A stretch of DNA of 64,000 nucleotides from Rhizodiscina lignyota. Lineage: Eukaryota > Ascomycota > Dothideomycetes > Aulographales > Rhizodiscinaceae. The stretch is from positions 186,001-250,000 of the forward strand of contig ML978143.1 of NCBI GenBank assembly GCA_010015805.1, read 5' to 3'. Numbering within the stretch: the first letter of the stretch is position 1; each line of letters starts with the position of its first letter. A program made the translations under genes and the position numbers. Shown here one piece after another: positions 1 through 27,871 of the stretch. The notes beneath the pieces are model-generated. The model saw only the letters and a list, made by a program, of their open reading frames with translations. It did not search any database and was not told the DNA's origin.

Positions 1-930
1 AACAGTTCCAGGATCAGATCAGCGAGGCAACGAGGAGAATATTGCAAGGGGACCGCGGTTATCGAAACACCATGCACCGACCGATTCGGCTGAATTTAGA
101 GCGGATGCAAATAGAGACGGAAGAGGAACCGGCACTGCACGCAAATCGAAACGTATTCGAGACGCTGAAGAAGCACGCCAGGCAGAGGAGCGACTAGAGC
201 CTCTTGAGCGTAGCCCTGAGTTAGGGACTACACCAGTTCCTCCAACTCCGGATACAACGCAAGCTAATAGTCTCCAAGAAACCTTTCACCGACCAAAAGA
301 ACTTTTAAGCGAGAAAGAAGGAGGCCCTCCGCTAGCTGAATCGCCACACCACACTGAATTCCCGGCACCTGCGGCGAACCTATCTGTGCGAAAAAGTCGG
401 AAGAATGGGAAACGCTTAAAAAAGAAGCGCCGAGCTACTCAGTCAACTCCCGATTGCAAGCCCACCCCTGGTAGACGCAATTGCCAGCATGAACTGCCCC
501 TTACCAACGTCGCCGAGGACGAACAACCTCCATTGAAACGCAGAAAGCTTCCAGCATCGCGGGAGTACAAGTGTCCAACTTGCGACCTACGACTTCATGT
601 GTACGTCGGCCAGCAAACTTTCCGAGGAGGCTTATATCATCCCGGTGCGTTCGCGCGTATGGATAGAGAATGACACATTTAGAAGTTGAATGCTAATACC
701 TGATAGGGCATCTTGAAAGAGACCTGGATCACTCGTGGTGGACTGGAGATGGCGTTGATACGTACAATGTGGGCAAGCGACCACCCGAAGAAGCGTACAA
801 ATGGACTTGTTGCGGGGAGGTAGAAAACTGGCCCGCATGCAAACTACATGTGCACGAGTCGGAGATGTTTGATAGATCTGTCTTACCAGATAATTTTGAG
901 GACTCTGACGTCGATGAAAATAGACCTTGA
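1..930 (+). CDS. CHORD-like Cys/His protein A (5' truncated by window)
   Basis: The reading frame is open from base 2, so the start lies outside the window. I read exons 2-644 and 707-930 (288 visible residues), with a 62 nt GT-AG intron containing TGCTAAT. The visible N-terminal part is a charged, proline-rich linker ending in basic clusters (RKSRKNGKRLKKKRR, PLKRRK), likely nuclear targeting. The C-terminal domain shows CPTC (about 572-583), then YHPG across the splice junction, then WTCC and a C-x4-H end. This order matches the CHORD zinc-binding fold seen in the four following genes. The third cysteine of the pattern (C-x2-H) is Gly here, so one zinc site may be lost. A short acidic tail follows. 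Function unknown; the domain call is inference from motif order. Confidence 0.7.
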
Positions 931-1484
931 AGTCCTGCCAAGCCGCCACGCAGAATGCTCGGTTCCGTTCGAGGAATCGAGCAAGGCTCATGCGCCTTTG
1001 TGTACTATGGGAACGACTCCCACACCTCCATGTAAAATGTTTGGCCTAAACACAAAAAGCATATTATTCTCACTCGATATCCAAGTCCGGAAATATTCGT
1101 GCGATCCTTGGTAAAGTTCACTGTGGCACTCGCTCGTCTCAAAAGCCCCCGTACTATATATCGGAATGGACGGTAAATTCTATTTAAAGATACATACTGT
1201 ACAGAACCTAGCCCTTGTCCATGGCAAGATATCTTAACTTCGGCACACCCCAAGAGCACGGTCTCGTTTCCCGCGCCAGCTCTCCTGAAAATCATATTTC
1301 ACGGCGGGACGTGGCGCGGGTCAACGCGTCACGCGTCGCGATGAATGAATTCCGTCCAAGCACCACTATATGTATCTTCCCCTCTGTAAACTTGATTTTA
1401 CGTTATGAGATCTAGCCCTTCAAATCCATGATTTAAGATATACTCGTCTCTAGTCACGCCCAGCAATCAAAGGGAAAATCCACA
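931..1484. other. Intergenic region A-B with paired ACGCGT boxes
   Basis: No credible gene. It serves as the 3' flank of gene A and the promoter of gene B, and contains two adjacent ACGCGT hexamers at 1324-1336. Confidence 0.6.
1324..1336. promoter_or_regulatory. Two adjacent ACGCGT (MCB-like) boxes
   Basis: ACGCGT occurs at 1324-1329 and 1331-1336, about 150 bp upstream of the start of gene B. ACGCGT is the MluI cell-cycle box bound by MBF (Mbp1/Swi6) in ascomycetes. That it works as such here is inference. Confidence 0.35.
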
Positions 1485-2503
1485 ATGCCACGAACATGGA
1501 GGGCTTGGTGCCCAAGACTTCAGCACAAGATTGATAACGCAAAACCTCGAAAAAGACGCAGAGCGCTGCGAAAACTACTGCGTCAAATGCCCCATCTTTC
1601 AGAGATCCTTTCTGAACTCTTGAAGCAGAAGGTGCCATTTGTGCAGAGCCTGAGAGTGGGGTATTCATTGCAACTTTTCCAAATACCTTACAGTCTACTC
1701 ACTAACAACAATACCCAGAGATAATATCTATTCGGCAGAGAACCGTAACCTAGCTGGATCAGGCGTTGGACATACTGCAGAAGAGGAGGACGAAGAGCCT
1801 GTAACATCTCCTTTCTCAGATCGCACGCCGAATTCAGGTCAAGCCGCCAGTGGAGTGTCAGAGAATGAAAGTCTCCTCGCGCAAGATGAAAGCGACCTCA
1901 CGTTCATGGATACTCAATCTGGGCCTGCTTCAAACCACACCCAGAGCCATAATAATACCCGTGCTTCTACATCTAAGCGCAATCACTATCCTTTTATTGG
2001 TACGCCATCCAATCGCTCAACAGTGCCAGGACTAAATACGCCGAGATCAAGCACAAAGAAGATTCGGTGGAAGGCCGTAAATGTCAGAACTCCAAAATCC
2101 GGTCATTCGGAGAGGACAGGCAACACCGGGCAAGTCACAGCAGTTGTCATTGTTCCTCCGAAAGATGCATCCGCACCAAGTTCCACAGCCGCAGGGGAGC
2201 CAGAAATTCGAAGATGCAGGTATTGTTGGAATTATATGCCCGACCACCTTTTCGACGGCGCAGAGGAGTGTCACTATCATGAAGGCACAACTTTCTCGCA
2301 TGTTTTGCTACATCCAGATCGCTGACTTATTCCCAGGTAAAAAAGTCAAGGCAGAAACAGGGAGGATATGGAATTGCTGCAGTGTCAAAGCAGGTCGTAA
2401 AATCAAAGGATGCAAGACAAGATGGGCTCATGAGAGGTGTAAACCTAAGAAGGGAAAGCGTAAGTTGACGAATACAGATACAACTGGGGAGGGCGCTGCG
2501 TAA
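1485..2503 (+). CDS. CHORD-like Cys/His protein B
   Basis: Exons 1485-1660, 1719-2284 and 2337-2503 give 302 residues in frame. Exon 1 encodes a basic helical N-terminus (KPRKRRRALRKLLRQ) resembling the N-termini of genes C, D and E. A polar, disordered linker follows. The C-terminal domain has C225-x2-C228, C243-x2-H246, WNCC (C261, C262), and C273-x5-H279, the order expected for a CHORD-type zinc module. The last intron is best read as a GC-AG intron (2285-2336). The GC donor is the only one that keeps phase 1, and it places the splice exactly where the paralogues splice, after the C-x2-H-x-G motif. The intron has a GCTGAC branch point and a CCCAG acceptor. Role unknown. Confidence 0.72.
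2285..2336 (+). other. Probable GC-AG intron in gene B
   Basis: The donor reads GAAG|GCACAA and the acceptor CCCAG. No GT donor nearby gives the required phase 1, and without splicing the frame stops soon after 2284. The position matches the GT-AG introns of paralogues A, C, D and E. Confidence 0.6.
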
Positions 2504-3389
2504 CAACAACGAATCTGAGAATGCAAGATCTTCCGGAGCAGGGGGGTAACTAGCAATATGTTTGACAATGTCACAATGTTCAGCAAAACAAGTTGTTGTA
2601 CAAAATTATTATTCTGAACAGTTATCGCACCCCTGCTGATCCCAGGTCAAAGATCGATGTGCGCGGTCAGGGGTAGCTCTGTAAATCTCCGATAGAGTAT
2701 GAGCGTCCGAGCGGTCGGGAGGTGGCTGGGCTTTTGCTGCTCGAGCCATCAAATGTGACAGAGCACATACCAAATTGTGATTCACCCCAGCACCTGAGAC
2801 ATCCATTAACGCGCAACAAACGCGTCGCGGGTAGCATGATGGCGTCGTGGCCGGAGCCTCAAGACATCATCTTGCTAGGCACCGGATTCCCCTGATATAC
2901 CCCTGGCTCGAGTTCTCGCCGTTTCGTGCACCTTCCTCTCGGCTCTATGTCAAACCAAATGGGGAGACGCACTACATATATTATCTAATTAATAATTTTA
3001 GTTTCAATCTCACTATGCGGTGTGGCGCGTTGCCGTTGATGATTTACGGAATCTTTCGGGCATCGTCGATTACACATCTCGCGCAGAAGCAAAATGTTCA
3101 ATGCTCGAATCCAAAAAGGGTAATATTTGGCCATTTGCGGGAGACAAGTACCTTTCAGGAACGTATTTGAATTTTTAATTCTGACTGGTTCCTACAGTTA
3201 CGATGCACCTATTGCGAGGAGTACAAATAGCAGCATACGGAGCAGTCATCTCCAAACTCCATCCATCCCAATTCTAAGAAGCGGATACCGTAGAATTTAT
3301 TGTACAACCCTAATCACTCCGATATTCTCTTTCGCGATGCCAAAATGCAATCTAGAATTAGATACCGGATACACCAAAGGAGATGCTTC
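2504..3389. other. Intergenic region between convergent genes B and C
   Basis: AT-rich in parts, with no credible gene. One ACGCGT lies at 2820-2825. Nothing else recognised. Confidence 0.55.
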
Positions 3390-4657
3390 CTAGGATCTCG
3401 AGCTCGAGCTCTGATTGGAGGGAGTCATGTGATTCTTTCCCAAACTGGGCTTTATTTGAATGATTGTCCGCGTTGGCAAACAGGAGTGCTCCGAGACATG
3501 CTTTGCTGTACTCGTTGCGAACCGGAGTTTACTACTCAGGAACGTCCTGCGCCGTCTCTCCAGCCGCTCCTTTGTGGATGCAGTAACTTGTAATGTGTCG
3601 TCTCCCTGCAGAATCCCAGGGCAATCCTGCCTTGACAAGTGCCTGCCCAATCTGCATCCAGCGTTGAGACCCGTGCGAAAGCAGCATGGATATTGGTATG
3701 TGTTCAACGGGCCGTAGCGATCTGATGCATAATATTTGCCACAAGCATCTGACTCAAGTTGCGCTTCGCCTGCGATTACTGGTCAGCACCGAGGCATAAA
3801 AAAAGACGAAATGCACCAGTCTTACGCGGATGGAACAAACAGCACTTGCTCTCTTGAGGCTGATTGGGAAAGAACATGTGAAAGCAACGGACACATTCAA
3901 CACGTCTCTCTGTGTTCTCGTCGGCAGACTCCTCAGCCCCGTCTTCTTCGATCTCGATCACAGGATTAACAGCAGCTTCAGGGCGTCGCTCAACGCTGAA
4001 TCTGGGCAGAAGTTCAGAGGTGGTTTCGTCTGTTCGCTTTTGCTCGAGCTGCAGTTTTAATTTTCGTCGCTTTTCTTTTCTCTTCTCCTTCTCCTTCGCA
4101 GGACGAGAGGAATTCTTTGTGGAGTTCTCTCCTAACTGAGTAGAACTTCCCTGAGTAGTACCGCTTTCTCGAGTTGAGATTGTTTCCTCCATCAAGATTG
4201 GCGCAAACCGAACAGATTTTGGAGCTCGGGGCCAGATATGCCTGGGGCCATTCACAGCGCGGGGAGGAGATGCCAATGTATTGAGCGCATCGTCGATTTT
4301 TGCAGGGGATCCGGAGGAGGCTAATATGTTGAGCGCTTCATTTATCTCCGCATTTTCTTCTACTTCCCATTGCGCTTTTCTTACATGCCTTAAACTGTGA
4401 TCTTTATCAGCTACACACGGCTTGATCTCTGTAGAAATGTCTTACCGGAAGTCTCGCCAGTCACAAGAAGGCAGCTCTTCTAAACCGAGAGGCAGACTTT
4501 TTGTGACATACCGGCGAATGTCAGCTCGCGGAGTTGATTCAAACCAGTTGATCATGCTCAGTGCATAACGCAACTGAGAATTGGTCGCCCGTTCGATCTC
4601 TTCTTGAACAGCTTCGCGCTCAGCAATATCGTCAATATCCGCGTTTGTGGTGTCCAT
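3390..4657 (-). CDS. CHORD-like Cys/His protein C
   Basis: Reading on the minus strand, exons 4657-4446, 4394-3826 and 3769-3390 give 386 residues in frame. The N-terminus is helical (ATNSQLRYALSMINW), like that of gene E. It is followed by two short related repeats (EALNILASS, DALNTLASP) and a lysine/glutamate-rich linker. The zinc-like module runs C238-x2-C241, C256-x2-H259, C289-C290, C299-x4-H304. The second intron, phase 1, falls directly after the C-x2-H-P motif as in the paralogues. Unlike the others, the protein continues about 80 basic residues beyond the domain. It is the only member on the minus strand, divergent from gene D and convergent with B. The start is the first ATG after an in-frame stop. 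Function unknown. Confidence 0.75.
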
Positions 4658-5312
4658 GTCAGAGCCCAGTTCAGAGTCCCTTGCGTCAATTGATTAAACG
4701 TCTACAGAGTACAAAAAAATAAGGCTTGTCTTTGCAGCGGGAGTTGGACGTTGAAATGGAAGAGACGCGTATGACCCGCGTCTATCATTATCGCGTGGCT
4801 TACTCGCACGGTCGTATGGAAATAGGGGGATTCCGCCACCTCCACACCCTGGTTCATGAACAAGTCAGCCCATCACTGTGGAACCTGCAGCCCGGTAGAC
4901 GCGGTTGATCGATTCTTGATCGGGTCACATTATTGGAGGCGCGTGCTTAGAGTTGTTTCATAAGCTTGACATCAAGAGCGCCAGGCTGTGTCCGCAGCAA
5001 GAAAAGGTAACAAACGCATCGGGAGCACTCCGTACGAAGTAATGTGCCGCGTGCATTTCTTGTGAGAACGCCTATCAAGAGCAAAAGCAAATCCCTCATC
5101 TCGGCCGTGTCTCTGCTCCAAACTTTCTCTCCAAATTGCATCACCTCAACTTGAAACCCTTCGCATCTGACATTATCAGCAGCAGGCCCAATTTTCTTTG
5201 ATCGGGTGCGCTTCCATTGCAGGTCTATCAGCTCTGCCTCAATTTTTCGACTCCACAGAGCAGGGCCTCTGTAGTATTGTTACATTGTCTTCCGCAGCAT
5301 TGAATTAACAAG
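4658..5312. other. Shared promoter region of divergent genes C and D
   Basis: No gene seen. An ACGCGT hexamer lies at 4765-4770, 108 bp upstream of the ATG of gene C. Confidence 0.5.
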
Positions 5313-6071
5313 ATGTCACGGAGTCAAACAGAGAAGTGCTTACCAGACGACTTGCATCACAAAAAGACAATCGAATTATTCAAAGCTATCAATAGTGCGT
5401 CTCTCGACGACCTCAGACTTGCGCTTTTCAATTCGAGAAGCCAGTGTCTCAATCACGAGCCCATCGAATTCATCCAGGATGTTCAGGGTCGTGACAAAGA
5501 GGTGGACAACTGGGCCGTGATTCAGCACGCGTTCGAGAATTTGGACCTGTCTGGATCGTTGAGAGAGCAAAGAAGCCCGGGGAAGAGGTAAGCTGGGGGA
5601 ATTTCGCTTTTTGCATCAGTTGAGTTATTGAACTGATCAGTGGCTTAGACAAAGCAAAAGAAGCGCAAATTTGCGCACACATATATCTGTTCGAAGTGCG
5701 ACAAAGAGTTCGATCTTATGCATGCTGAAGAAGGGGAGTGCAAGAGGCATTCCGGTATATACGAACACATCTCCCGCTAATCCAGATTGTAGCACTAATT
5801 GTGGATCGTAGGTCAACTCGAAATTGACTGGGAGTATGAATACTGGTATAACATAGAGCCAGAAAGCATAGAGGATGAGTCTCCAGAAGGCACTGGTGCT
5901 CCCATAGAAGCCTACATCTGGTCGTGTTGTATGACAGATGGTACCAACGAAGGTTGCATAGCATCAATACATGAAGCAAAGGGCTACGCTTGGAAGAAAT
6001 CAAAAAACGAAAGCGCACTGCCTATTGAAACTGCCACAGACTTGTACATACTTATTTTCCTTCTGGGTTGA
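5313..6071 (+). CDS. CHORD-like Cys/His protein D, possibly frame-broken
   Basis: Three exon-like blocks are clear. Block 5313-5587 encodes a helical N-terminus resembling those of B, C and E. Block 5649-5754 encodes CSKC and ECKRH. Block 5812-6071 encodes IWSCC and GC-x4-H. The last intron (5755-5811) is phase 1 and matches the paralogues. The obvious first intron (GTAAGC at 5588, TTAG ending 5648) joins phase 2 to phase 0, so the frame does not hold. An in-frame TAG at 5646-5648 prevents an earlier acceptor. Either a weak upstream donor (candidates at 5502 or 5517) is used, or the gene carries a frameshift and yields only the N-terminal part. All metal-ligand positions are intact, which argues for recent damage or alternative splicing. 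Confidence 0.5.
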
Positions 6072-6335
6072 GTGCAGCGTGCCATCCTCGCAATCCTTGA
6101 GAACTTCGAAAAGAAAGTGCGCATCAATCACCTTAGAGTAACAATTTTTCCTCTCTGATAGAGATGTATTACAGTTTATATTATATCAATCCATTCACGA
6201 TTCTGAAGAATATTGCTCTCACGTGGATGGCGGGGTGGTCTTGTCCAGTGTTTTGGATGCACCTCGCGATCTCACTCTTTCGGCTCATTTCCTCAAATCA
6301 CTGGTCACAACTCTTTTTAACAACGAATACAAGAA

Positions 6336-8342
6336 ATGGAAGGATTTGCAGATCCTGAGGAGATTCAGAGGTCCCTAGACAGCCAGTTAGGAATCGAGCG
6401 TCCACTACACTGGGGAAGGGACGCGTTCGAGCTGGTGTTGCGGCACGAAGAAGTACTCCAGACGTATATTGACCCGACGAATATCATTCAGCTGAAATAT
6501 GCGATCTTAAAGACAATTGATCGGAGCAAGAAATCATACAACGCGTTCATAAAGGCCGTGACCGAAGATGTACCACTCGATCTCCGAAAACGTTGGAAAG
6601 ACGCGTCGCAACGCGTCGAATCTGAGCGCGTCAAGGTTATTTCGACCGCCTCACAGGACAGCTACGGACCAGACGATGACAAACTGTTCGATGATTTTAT
6701 AGGCTTCGATGAAGCTTTTCCAGAACCGTTCCAAAGTACGAACGACAAAGATTCTGAATATGACTCCAACTATGGCAGCTCTATCTCATCAACAGCAGCC
6801 GAGGACAAGGATTCCTCATCGTCTGTCTCCTCAACAGAGTCACGAAATTCGCCAACCAAGCGGAAAAGGTCCTCTAAAGAGCAAACAATTTCGAGAGGTC
6901 GTGATCCGTCACCACAGACAGTCACTATCGATCTATCAAATGTCACGGCTCTTGGCGAAAACAGCAAGTACATTCAGCTTGCGTACTGCACAAACTGCGG
7001 AAAGCACTTTGACCCGGATAAGCCCGTTCTAGATGAATGCAGATACCATCCATGTGAGTGTCACGGCGTCAACTGAGGCAGTTCGTTAGCTAACTATCCC
7101 ACTCCAGATAAAGCAGAGCTTGATAAGCGGACTGCGTATATGAAAGAATACAACACGGGAATGCACGATGACTATGTCAAGAAGCATGGAATGCCGCCAT
7201 ATGCCCATCATCACCCTTGCTGCGAGAAGCCAATGGGTGGGAGAGGCTGTGTGGCGGGATATCATGTCCCCAGGCTATGGATGAAAATCTACATCGGCGG
7301 TGACTGCGATGAAAAGCAGACATCGTTCTGTAAGTCTTGCGTCTCCTTGGGACCTGAGAACCTGAACATCCCTGAACTGAAGGTTCTGAAGCGTCTGGAG
7401 AGACGCATGACTCCATTTGAGAAACTCCCGGACAAGACGCAAGATCAGCGGGTTACCTCCGAATTGATTCGTACGCCCCACAACAAAGTTGACAAGACCA
7501 TATCAGCTGCTGTACGGCTGGGAGATAGGCCAAGAGCGAACCCGGACCGTGCAATACATACCTCGAATAACAAGATTCCCACTCCTCCGGCATCCTCTCC
7601 CCCGAAACGTTCGGGAGGCAAGCGAAAATGGGCGGACTCGAATCGCGCGACAGATCAGAACACTCCCTCCAGCTCTGGTTCTACTGCAAAATCAGTCGAC
7701 AAGGATATGAGAGCAGGTTCGATTTATTCAATACGCCCTGAGCAGCACAAGGTCCTTTCCACTCCTGCTCCAGCTAAACAATCTGGCGAGAAACGAAGAA
7801 GAACAGATTCGGAGCAATCGATACATGCTGAAGAGAAGAGAGCACCTGCCAAACGTCTCATCGACAATCTGAAGTCAGTGAACTCGGAAACTTCGAAACG
7901 GAGAGAGACCACGGGCGTTACATCTAGCTCACGTCCAACCGGAGGTTCAGCACGAGAATTCAAAACACCTCAAGCACAGCACAGTCTTCCTTTGGTATCA
8001 TCCGGTGGCCGATCGATCGTCTCAACGATTGAAGCAGGACCATCGTCGAATCGTTCGGTGGGGACGTCAGTGAAGCAAACGACAACGCCTTCGGCTGCGT
8101 ATCCAGTTGGAAATACGGCGCGAGTCTTCAAAACACCTCAAGTACAGCGCACCCTTTCTTTGACATCCTCCAGTGACCGGTCGAACACATCAACAGCCGT
8201 AGCCGGACCATCCTCGAATCATTCAAAAGGTCCCTCGGCAGGGCAAGTCCGGCAGCAGACGCTACCGTTTACAACGGTCAGACAGTCGTCAAACGTGGCC
8301 ACACCATATCAGGGCAAAGGAAAACGGAAAGCGGGATTTTGA
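6336..8342 (+). CDS. CHORD-like Cys/His protein E with long basic tail
   Basis: Exons 6336-7053 and 7108-8342 join in phase 1 to give 650 residues. The N-terminus is helical (IIQLKYAILKTIDR), like gene C. A Ser/Asp-rich linker with KRKR follows. The zinc-like module runs C218-x2-C221, C235-x2-H238, C277-C278, C287-x4-H292. The loop between C-x2-H and CC is longer than in A, B and D. The remaining 350 residues form a low-complexity tail. It holds repeated Pro-rich/basic modules (SGGKRKW, SGEKRRR) and a 40-residue near-duplication (7950-8069 and 8118-8237) containing FKTPQ and AGPSSN. This is the largest member and the right end of the array. Basic patches suggest a nuclear protein; no biochemical role can be read. 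Confidence 0.75.
7950..8237 (+). repeat. Internal 40-codon duplication in gene E
   Basis: Two copies, 7950-8069 and 8118-8237, are offset by 168 nt and share ARxFKTPQ, then LxSS, then AGPSSN. They keep frame and sit in the disordered tail. Confidence 0.7.
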
Positions 8343-25551: not shown

Positions 25552-27871
25552 ATGTCTCCGTGGAGCGACCTAGGAGCGAATTTCAAGTTTCAGGATCTTG
25601 AAAGAGTTTCTCTCCCAATGCAAAAAGAATGGATGCCCGCTTTCCGGCGTAGTGAACGGCTGATACGCGCGTCGGAGGAGCCGGGGCAGCCCTCTGACTG
25701 CTGTCAGAATTATTACAAAGGTCATATCTCAAAGCTAGTAAGCACTGAAAACAACGCCAGAAGGCTAGTACGCGTCTGTTGATATCAATTAGGAAAATTG
25801 TGATGAAATGTACACCGAAGTATTAGACGACATGATTGGCGACTCTCCACCTGCCTTATACGAGGTGTTTCGCTTTTGTTTATACTCTGGGATTATAGAT
25901 TGTCGCAACTTGAAATGTAGAGAACTTAAGGCCAAGATGTCGAGTTTTTTCCCGGAGGAAGAGTCAGAATGGCCAGCTTTTCGAGAATGGGCAATAGTGC
26001 GAACATCTTGCCTAGTCGCATCAGAAATAACTGGATCTGACCCTGAATCTCAAGATGACTCGGTCAGTGGTTTGGAACGTGGATTGCTCGAGCCCAGTCA
26101 AATGCCCGTTGAATATTTCGAGCTCATGGAGTGGATGATGGATATCGACTATTTCTTGGCCCACCCCAATGAAAAACGCAATCCGTTTCGCTTGACTTCA
26201 TCCTTTTACTTTGCGTCACAACCCGGGGATAGAATTCAACCGCCTTATCGTGTCTACGAAGCGAAATCGCGGGAAGCTCTGGAACAGGGAAAGAGCTTGG
26301 GGATCTGTCCAAATCGCTTGTGGAATGTTGTATCAGGGAGTCCGCGCCTGGAATTCGACTTGGTGGGCCTAATGACGGCTATAAATAATGTCCCTGCGCG
26401 GACCAAGTTCGGTCATAAGGAATCGAAATCGCAAATCGCCGCTGCGGCGCCCATTATTCCAACGACATCCAGTGGAAATCATACCGCGTGCGCTCCGGAT
26501 CTTTGCCACTTTGCGTTTATCGACAGCACTGGTGTCAAAATTCTGCATAAATGCCCTGGACAGAATTGCACAAGGCTGGATTTCACTCCACTGGTCACTG
26601 GGCAACCTCCATACATCTGGTCAATTGATGACGCCAAATTCACCCATCCAGGCAAGAATAAATATGTCGCTATTTCTCATGTCTGGTCCGATGGCACAGG
26701 AGCTGAAAATGGGGTTGTTAATAAATGCATGCTCGAATACTTCCAGGACATCGCTGTCGCTGCCGGATGCAGAGCTCTATGGTGGGATGCAATATCTATT
26801 CTTATCGACCCGACGCTTCGCAGCGAAGCCATAAAAAACATGCATACCAATTTTTCAGACGCCAGATGCACCGTAGTACACAACCAGTATACCGTAGGAT
26901 ATCCGTGGAGGGAGGACGGTAGCCCATGCATTGCCCTCGCTCTTTCTCCCTGGTTTACACGTGGCTGGACGGCGTTGGAGTTGCTCGTCTCAGAACAGGT
27001 CAAGGTCATCTTCAGGCATCCCATGGACGAGAACAGATACGAATTGAAAGATCTGAAAACAGAGATCCTTGCGTCCAATCCAGTATGTAGTCGCGGCCAC
27101 TGGATTGCATCAACAGTTATTAGACGGCTCTGCGATTCAAAAGTTGAGAGCCTATCGGACGTTCTGCATATCCTGGGGACGAGAAGCACATCATGGCCAC
27201 GCGATCGCCTTACTATCGCATCTCTCATTTCCGGTCTGAAGCCTGATGACAAAGATCCGGAAATGCAAGCGATAATTACACAGGATCTTATTATTCACTT
27301 TGGCAAAGTAGATCCCAAATTTCTTCTGCATGGAGGCCCTACAGAAGGACAAGGAGTATTTTCATGGTGCCCCTCAACGCTCGTGATTGGAGCCAAACCC
27401 AACATACCCTCGGGCTTTACGCCCTCAGAATGGCTGTCTGTTCACTCGGATGGTACTCTGACCGGTCAATTCATAACAAGGGTGCTGGAAAGCCAGGATA
27501 TAGAACGACTAATGCCATTTACAACCCACCCTTCTGGTAGCTGGAAAGTGCAGTGCGCTTTGAATAACTGGCAGCAGTGCATGCTAATATGGCCGGAAGC
27601 AAACGACGGGTTAATCGGGACCCCCGCTATCCTAGTAACGGTGCTGGGTTTGGACATACTTACTATCGATACTGGTAACAAATCCGTTCTTAGACCGAGA
27701 GCATTTCTGGACTGTCGCATGGAAGGCCTCTGCTATGGACAGCAAGGTTCCGAACGCGCCTGCGTCCGCCTCGGGAAGAAAATCGACAATCCTTCAGCAC
27801 AAAGCGCGAAAGACCTCTATGACCAATGGCAGCAGAGAGACATGGATTGTATATACGACATGCGCGAATAG
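25552..27871 (+). CDS. HET-domain (heterokaryon incompatibility) protein
   Basis: Exons 25552-25737 and 25793-27871 (phase 0) give 754 residues. The HET domain is read from three blocks: KYVAISHVW (about residue 351), WWDAISI followed by AIKNMHTNFSDA (about 392), and WFTRGWTALELL (about 452). These parallel the usual YVALSYVWG, WIDALCINQ and RxWTxQE. The histidine and aspartate changes place it in a diverged HET subgroup. The N-terminal 280 residues and the C-terminal 230 match no family I recognise. No NACHT or WD repeats are present. HET domains trigger cell death on recognition of non-self in Pezizomycotina; whether this gene acts in vegetative incompatibility is unknown. F-box-like genes flank it on both sides. 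Confidence 0.85.

Follow-up and report, generated by a model that had tools for sequence, protein, structure and literature searches.

A tandem gene array in the fungus Rhizodiscina lignyota with putative CHORD-like zinc modules that resemble the module of Rex3

To which family do the zinc-module genes at the left end of a 64,000-nucleotide stretch of the Rhizodiscina lignyota genome belong, and does their likeness to the CHORD domain make them co-chaperones? The stretch (contig ML978143.1, here C23:186001-250000) is called the window below, and the genome searched comprises 33.4 Mb in 29 contigs. A preliminary description, made from the letters alone, had placed five consecutive genes here, A to E, with a common ligand order near the C-terminus; it took them for a CHORD-related family that had expanded locally, and expected the array to continue past the left edge. 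By our reading the genes indeed form a locally expanded, tandemly duplicated family, but the nearer relative of their modules appears to be that of Rex3 rather than the CHORD of the co-chaperones.

The array consists of eight genes with nine modules in about 16.2 kb, from approximately C23:178118 (the ATG of gene G) to C23:194342. Five of the genes (A-E) lie within the window, at the place originally given, and the DNA read leftward added four more modules in three genes, namely G, F and T, the last being the sole two-module gene of the array. All nine modules carry C-x2-C, C-x2-H, CC and C-x4/5-H in this order, and eight have the complete set of eight ligands. As had been noted, one ligand is changed in module A, where Gly stands at Cys 3 (RGGLYH) and leaves seven of the eight, and the spacing of 13-14 residues between Cys 2 and Cys 3 in B-E was borne out. 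The position near the C-terminus held with the exception of gene E, in which the module lies mid-protein with approximately 358 residues after it.

In a six-frame reading each window module falls into two halves, separated by a predicted intron of 52-62 nucleotides. Across all nine modules a phase-1 intron of 49-62 nucleotides is predicted at the residue after C-x2-H; these introns were predicted from DNA and, for most modules, chosen by homology among several candidates. Eight are GT-AG and one, in gene B, is GC-AG. The gene B intron (2285-2336) has a GC donor (AAG/GCACAA) of weak consensus where its eight relatives have GT. Branch-site-like motifs near the module introns were shown for eight of the nine, the rows for G being in the wrong frame. 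Seven ligand columns are invariant although identity to the first row of the module alignment is only 22-29%. Leave-one-out profiles recovered seven of the nine modules with expectation values (E) <=1.2e-6 per 100,000 sequences; the two that escaped recovery, B (E 12) and F (E 24), are those whose middle loop is short.

By chance, the paired motif would be expected about zero times. The two halves of the module, in order and within <=400 nucleotides, occur eight times in 80 kb around the array as against zero in 200 order-2 Markov simulations, by a strict pattern that misses module A. When modules D, T2, A, E, T1 and B were used as single genome-wide queries, all matches with E <0.1 lay inside the array. 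These queries cover six of the nine modules, and those with D, A and B retrieved none of the neighbouring modules in the array; the sensitivity of single queries is thus low, and distant copies may exist elsewhere in the genome. Two weak matches outside the array (C10 and C4; E 0.165 and 0.296) were rejected, as both are without the module motif. A very AT-rich stretch, such as repeat-induced point mutation may leave behind, lies near a contig end at C10:14009 onward (L009 1-200). For gene C, the closest relative is gene T, in the module (E 5e-6; 52%) as well as in the N-terminal segment described below (E 8e-5), which fits whole-gene duplication. To the left, locus L005 (C23:170000-179999), which ends at the start of the leftmost module, gave no match to either module half.

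The co-chaperone CHORDs had been the only reference considered, and this choice did not hold up: a single CHORD, preceded by a KIX domain and adjoined by a DEDDh nuclease, also occurs in Rex3/REXO1 (excerpts of PMC12129344), and the array modules fit Rex3 better. From its architecture, in which a nuclease part matching a Rex1 catalytic query (E 2e-21) comes after a module, we identified the gene at C2:1035283-1036146 as the predicted Rex3 of this genome; an EloA-BP1 search for it had given one false lead, and a search with RNase_T did not pick it up when the default cut-off was applied. Its module reads C-x2-C, C-x2-H, CC-x8-C, C-x5-H and is one open frame without an intron. Among five references tried, Rex3 was the best match of the array profile (19.2 bits), followed by 2YRT (17.3), the genome's own CHORD2 (11.7), 2XCM (5.9) and its own CHORD1 (2.8). 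In hhalign the array aligned to Rex3 with a probability of 84.5% over 62 columns, spanning all ligands. All nine modules agree with Rex3 in having C-x2-C, the short CC-C spacing and neither of the Hsp90-contact segments discussed below, and seven of the eight genes agree with it in having one module.

Kinship to CHORD in the broad sense, as first proposed, is supported but weak. Pfam CHORD (PF04968) matches were found for B (E 4.3e-4, 21.3 bits) and T1 (E 0.02), both below the cut-off of 24.6 bits, while the other seven modules gave no CHORD match at all. Searched against 177,635 PDB sequences, the nine-module profile had 2YRT (CHORD containing protein-1) as its top match at E 0.15 and 1WIG, which we take to be a LIM domain, as its second at E 0.34; with Rex3 added to the profile, 2YRT rose to E 0.012 and the next match stood at E 1.7. 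The absence of any match above the Pfam cut-off or of a significant PDB match, together with the low similarity between Rex3 and the array and the intronless Rex3 module, is what one would expect if an independent two-zinc module had come to resemble CHORD and Rex3 only through convergent ligand order. We consider such convergence unlikely, although it retains appreciable weight. The eight-ligand order with its CC pair is identical in all three, the hhalign match to Rex3 is the one given above, and Rex3, 2YRT and CHORD2 each scored above 1000/1000 shuffles in which every Cys and His was kept in place; a score above such shuffles indicates a likeness that goes beyond the ligands.

The same scores for CHORD2 and 2YRT, together with the Pfam matches of B and T1 and the rank of 2YRT in the PDB, could also speak for an expansion of true co-chaperone CHORD proteins acting with Hsp90 and Sgt1. 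The profile-profile comparison that bears on this is divided: hhalign gave 79.3% against a four-CHORD profile, but over 28 columns only. The CHORD and Rex3 profiles matched each other at 0.64%. CHORD1 and 2XCM, moreover, lay within the shuffles (112/1000 and 40/1000). In Rar1 CHORD-II, contacts to Hsp90 or nucleotide include Ala185, Phe187, His188, Asp189, Trp194, Phe204, Phe207 and Met208, which occupy an FH[DE] loop, a position two residues ahead of CC and the CC-to-C insert (excerpts of PMC2935968). FH[DE], F-x2-F-[ML] and CC-x15-C are present in 4/4 CHORD sequences (three proteins), in 0/9 array modules (the spacing of module C being read by eye as CC-x8-C) and not in Rex3; at the contact Trp position only D, A, B and G have Trp. 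Judged by these motifs, the known Hsp90 interface is missing from the array modules, and the Hsp90/Sgt1 reading is not supported; with the contact segments absent, the link to Hsp90, Sgt1 and plant NLR immunity drawn at the outset has no support. Co-chaperone CHORDs are described as paired and as having a CS domain or partner (excerpts of PMC2935968); each array gene except T has a single module, and no CS domain was found in the pieces scanned with Pfam, which leave some exons uncovered. Two canonical CHORDs do occur in this genome, in one gene on C20 that is not part of the array. An expansion of co-chaperones is, to our mind, highly improbable.

The zinc ligands, by comparison, are kept. 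The two sites of 2XCM are formed by Cys159, Cys164, Cys178 and His218, and by His181, Cys196, Cys197 and Cys213 (excerpts of PMC2935968). By analogy, an array module would bind two zinc ions, one through Cys1, Cys2, Cys3 and the last His and the other through the middle His, the CC pair and the next Cys, and the Gly of gene A would fall in the first site.

Outside the module, the array genes have in common an N-terminal segment of about 45 residues, roughly I[DE]-x-A-x3-QLR-x-AL, which is recognisable in seven of the eight. When it was cut out by hand and tested against 1000 shuffles per gene, no shuffle did as well for C, T, B, G or F; 4 did for E and 3 for A. Residues of the set S/T/P/G/Q/N/E/D/K/R make up 69-76% of the five linkers measured (G, T, A, B and E), which look disordered; basic runs occur in those of G, T, A and E and not in B, and from basic clusters only the proteins may be nuclear. 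In Pfam scans of 10 exon pieces, which cover the exons in part, and of a set of 8 pieces, every family stayed below its cut-off. Sub-cut-off matches were Zn_ribbon_FGT1_1 on module G, Cys_rich_VLP on F, HIPIP on T1, HAM1_C and DUF179 on the N-terminal piece of T, and efThoc1 on E (E 0.028). A DEDDh exonuclease was likewise without a Pfam match in the 10 exon pieces; since Pfam listed no nuclease for the genome's own Rex3 either, the catalytic part of the latter was also used in tblastn and gave E >=0.22 on the array. On the Pfam scan of the exon pieces and tblastn, we rejected the reading of the array genes as Rex3 genes with a hidden nuclease. As to a KIX domain, a tblastn match at gene T (E 0.26) failed against shuffles, and a better one (E 0.017) lies in the tail of gene C, outside the segment; both were discarded.

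That no DEDDh domain was found could mean that the genes are decaying duplicates of Rex3, which lost the exonuclease and are now under little constraint. The lost ligand in gene A and the non-standard donor in gene B would agree with this, as would the initial exon junctions of three genes. For gene D, a search for GT-AG introns of good donor quality that join the first exon (5313-5650 region) to the module exon in frame found none; this gene may have another start site or be damaged. The splice-site search did not settle the corresponding junction in A and G either. However, open frames are long, up to 624 codons, the module intron is usable in 9/9, branch-site-like motifs accompany it in 8/9 and the seven ligand columns are invariant at 22-29% identity. 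Long frames, usable introns with such motifs and invariant ligands argue for selection; in addition, the N-terminal segment is unlike the KIX region of Rex3, and the Rex3 module lacks the intron. We regard decay as very unlikely.

We favour, with somewhat better than even confidence, the explanation that the array is a tandemly duplicated fungal family of Rex3/REXO1-type CHORD-like modules serving as non-catalytic adaptors. The array, its common intron site, the two conserved regions and the absence of the Hsp90-contact segments are read directly from the sequence; an anatomy in which a flexible linker connects two conserved regions, and in which no enzyme was recognised, fits an adaptor. By analogy with CHORDs in general, Rex3-type modules may bind protein partners. 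In such a protein the predicted zinc module would grip one partner, the N-terminal helices would grip another partner, or each other, and the long charged linker would set the reach between them. Copies would have been duplicated locally and have diverged in loop and linker, presumably varying their partners; that local expansion combined with strong divergence reflects a diversification of partners is a guess. Going further, the array might be a diversifying set of interchangeable, nuclease-free Rex3-type adaptors that tune or recognise fast-changing partners, transcription-coupled RNA decay and fungal self/non-self recognition being examples of where they might act; we think this quite unlikely. 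We know of no CHORD-type module with such a role.

A number of results weigh against the Rex3-type adaptor explanation. In tblastn the Rex3 module reached no better than E 0.003 on the 16.8-kb array, and over the whole genome it retrieved itself only and no array gene. The PDB matches are not significant on their own, either as such or with Rex3 added, and CHORD1 and 2XCM failed to beat the shuffles. The array N-terminal profile does not resemble the KIX region of the genome's own Rex3 (741/2000 shuffles as good; hhalign probability 0.15%), and the segment of gene D is not significant (107/1000 shuffles). Structure models contribute little: that of the N-terminal segment, built from four window rows, shows three main helices, is of middling confidence (predicted local distance difference test, pLDDT, 65.2) and gave no fold match (best E 9.9), and that of module D, translated through its intron, is unusable (pLDDT 42.7).

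The gene and module map is given in the table. Besides the position of module E given above, it corrects the first reading in two respects, in that gene C lies on the minus strand and gene B requires a GC-AG intron where the whole family has its module intron. The array is flanked by an Hsp70-family gene (left) and a Dus gene. The Hsp70-family gene, presumably LHS1-like, is located at L005 4613-6682, immediately left of the array. The short introns of the window's genes and its HET-domain gene, a kind of gene typical of filamentous ascomycetes, suggest a member of that group.

Table. Genes and modules of the array and one further gene; positions are those of the window unless another reference is given.
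Feature	Position	Strand	Remarks
Module G	C23:179998		Left flank (16 kb leftward reading, loci L004 and L005)
Module F	C23:181616		Left flank, same reading
Modules T1 and T2	C23:183484 and C23:183826		Left flank, same reading; tandem pair in gene T (L004 5485-6097)
Gene A, N-terminal exon	Left of window, ATG ~-1241 (C23:184759)	+	Open reading frames and splice sites
Gene A (3' part)	1..930	+	Exons 1-644, 707-930; disordered-looking linker and module; open reading frames and splice sites
Module A, Rex3/CHORD-like	572..855	+	Split by 62-nucleotide phase-1 intron 645-706
Gene B	1485..2503	+	Exons 1485-1660, 1719-2284, 2337-2503; N-terminal helical segment, linker, module; second intron GC-AG
Module B, short-loop form	2215..2431	+	Sole window module with a Pfam CHORD match (E 4.3e-4, below cut-off)
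Gene C	3390..4657	-	Putative exons 4657-4446, 4388-3826 (or from 4394), 3769-3390
Module C	3639..3895	-	Intron 3825-3770; nearest is T2 in the left flank (overall identity 52%; 56% in a 32-residue stretch)
Gene D	5313..6071	+	First exon from 5313; module exons to 5754 and 5812-6071
Module D	5688..5972	+	Intron 5755-5811
Gene E	6336..8342	+	Exons 6336-7053, 7108-8342; N-terminal helical segment, linker and module, then a long tail that looks disordered
Module E	6987..7265	+	Intron 7054-7107
HET-domain (heterokaryon incompatibility) gene	25808-27871		

CHORD-type modules are easily mistaken for Hsp90 partners. The array would belong to a C-x2-C, short-loop class, common with Rex3, in which the zinc ligands are kept and the known Hsp90 surface is not, here expanded in a fungus without an attached enzyme having been found. 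If true, this would uncouple the fold from a function with chaperones and provide a natural set of paralogues for finding the binding partners of the Rex3-type module. Among the matches listed in the open-licence literature, titles and abstract openings gave no description of a fungal array of such modules.

Two known systems come closest to the array. With the CHORD of Rar1, CHORDC1 and melusin (PF04968) its modules have the eight-ligand order and the CC pair in common; unlike these CHORDs, which have C-x4-C, CC-x15-C, the FH[DE] loop and F-x2-F-[ML], they have C-x2-C, a short CC-x6-10-C and neither segment, and whereas the co-chaperone CHORDs are paired, only one of the eight array genes (T) has two modules. 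Rex3, for its part, carries a KIX domain and a DEDDh exonuclease, neither of which was found in the array genes, and its module is intronless, whereas the array consists of tandem genes with an intron inside the module. As in the array, however, Rex3/REXO1 has a single module with C-x2-C, a short CC-C spacing and no Hsp90-contact segments.

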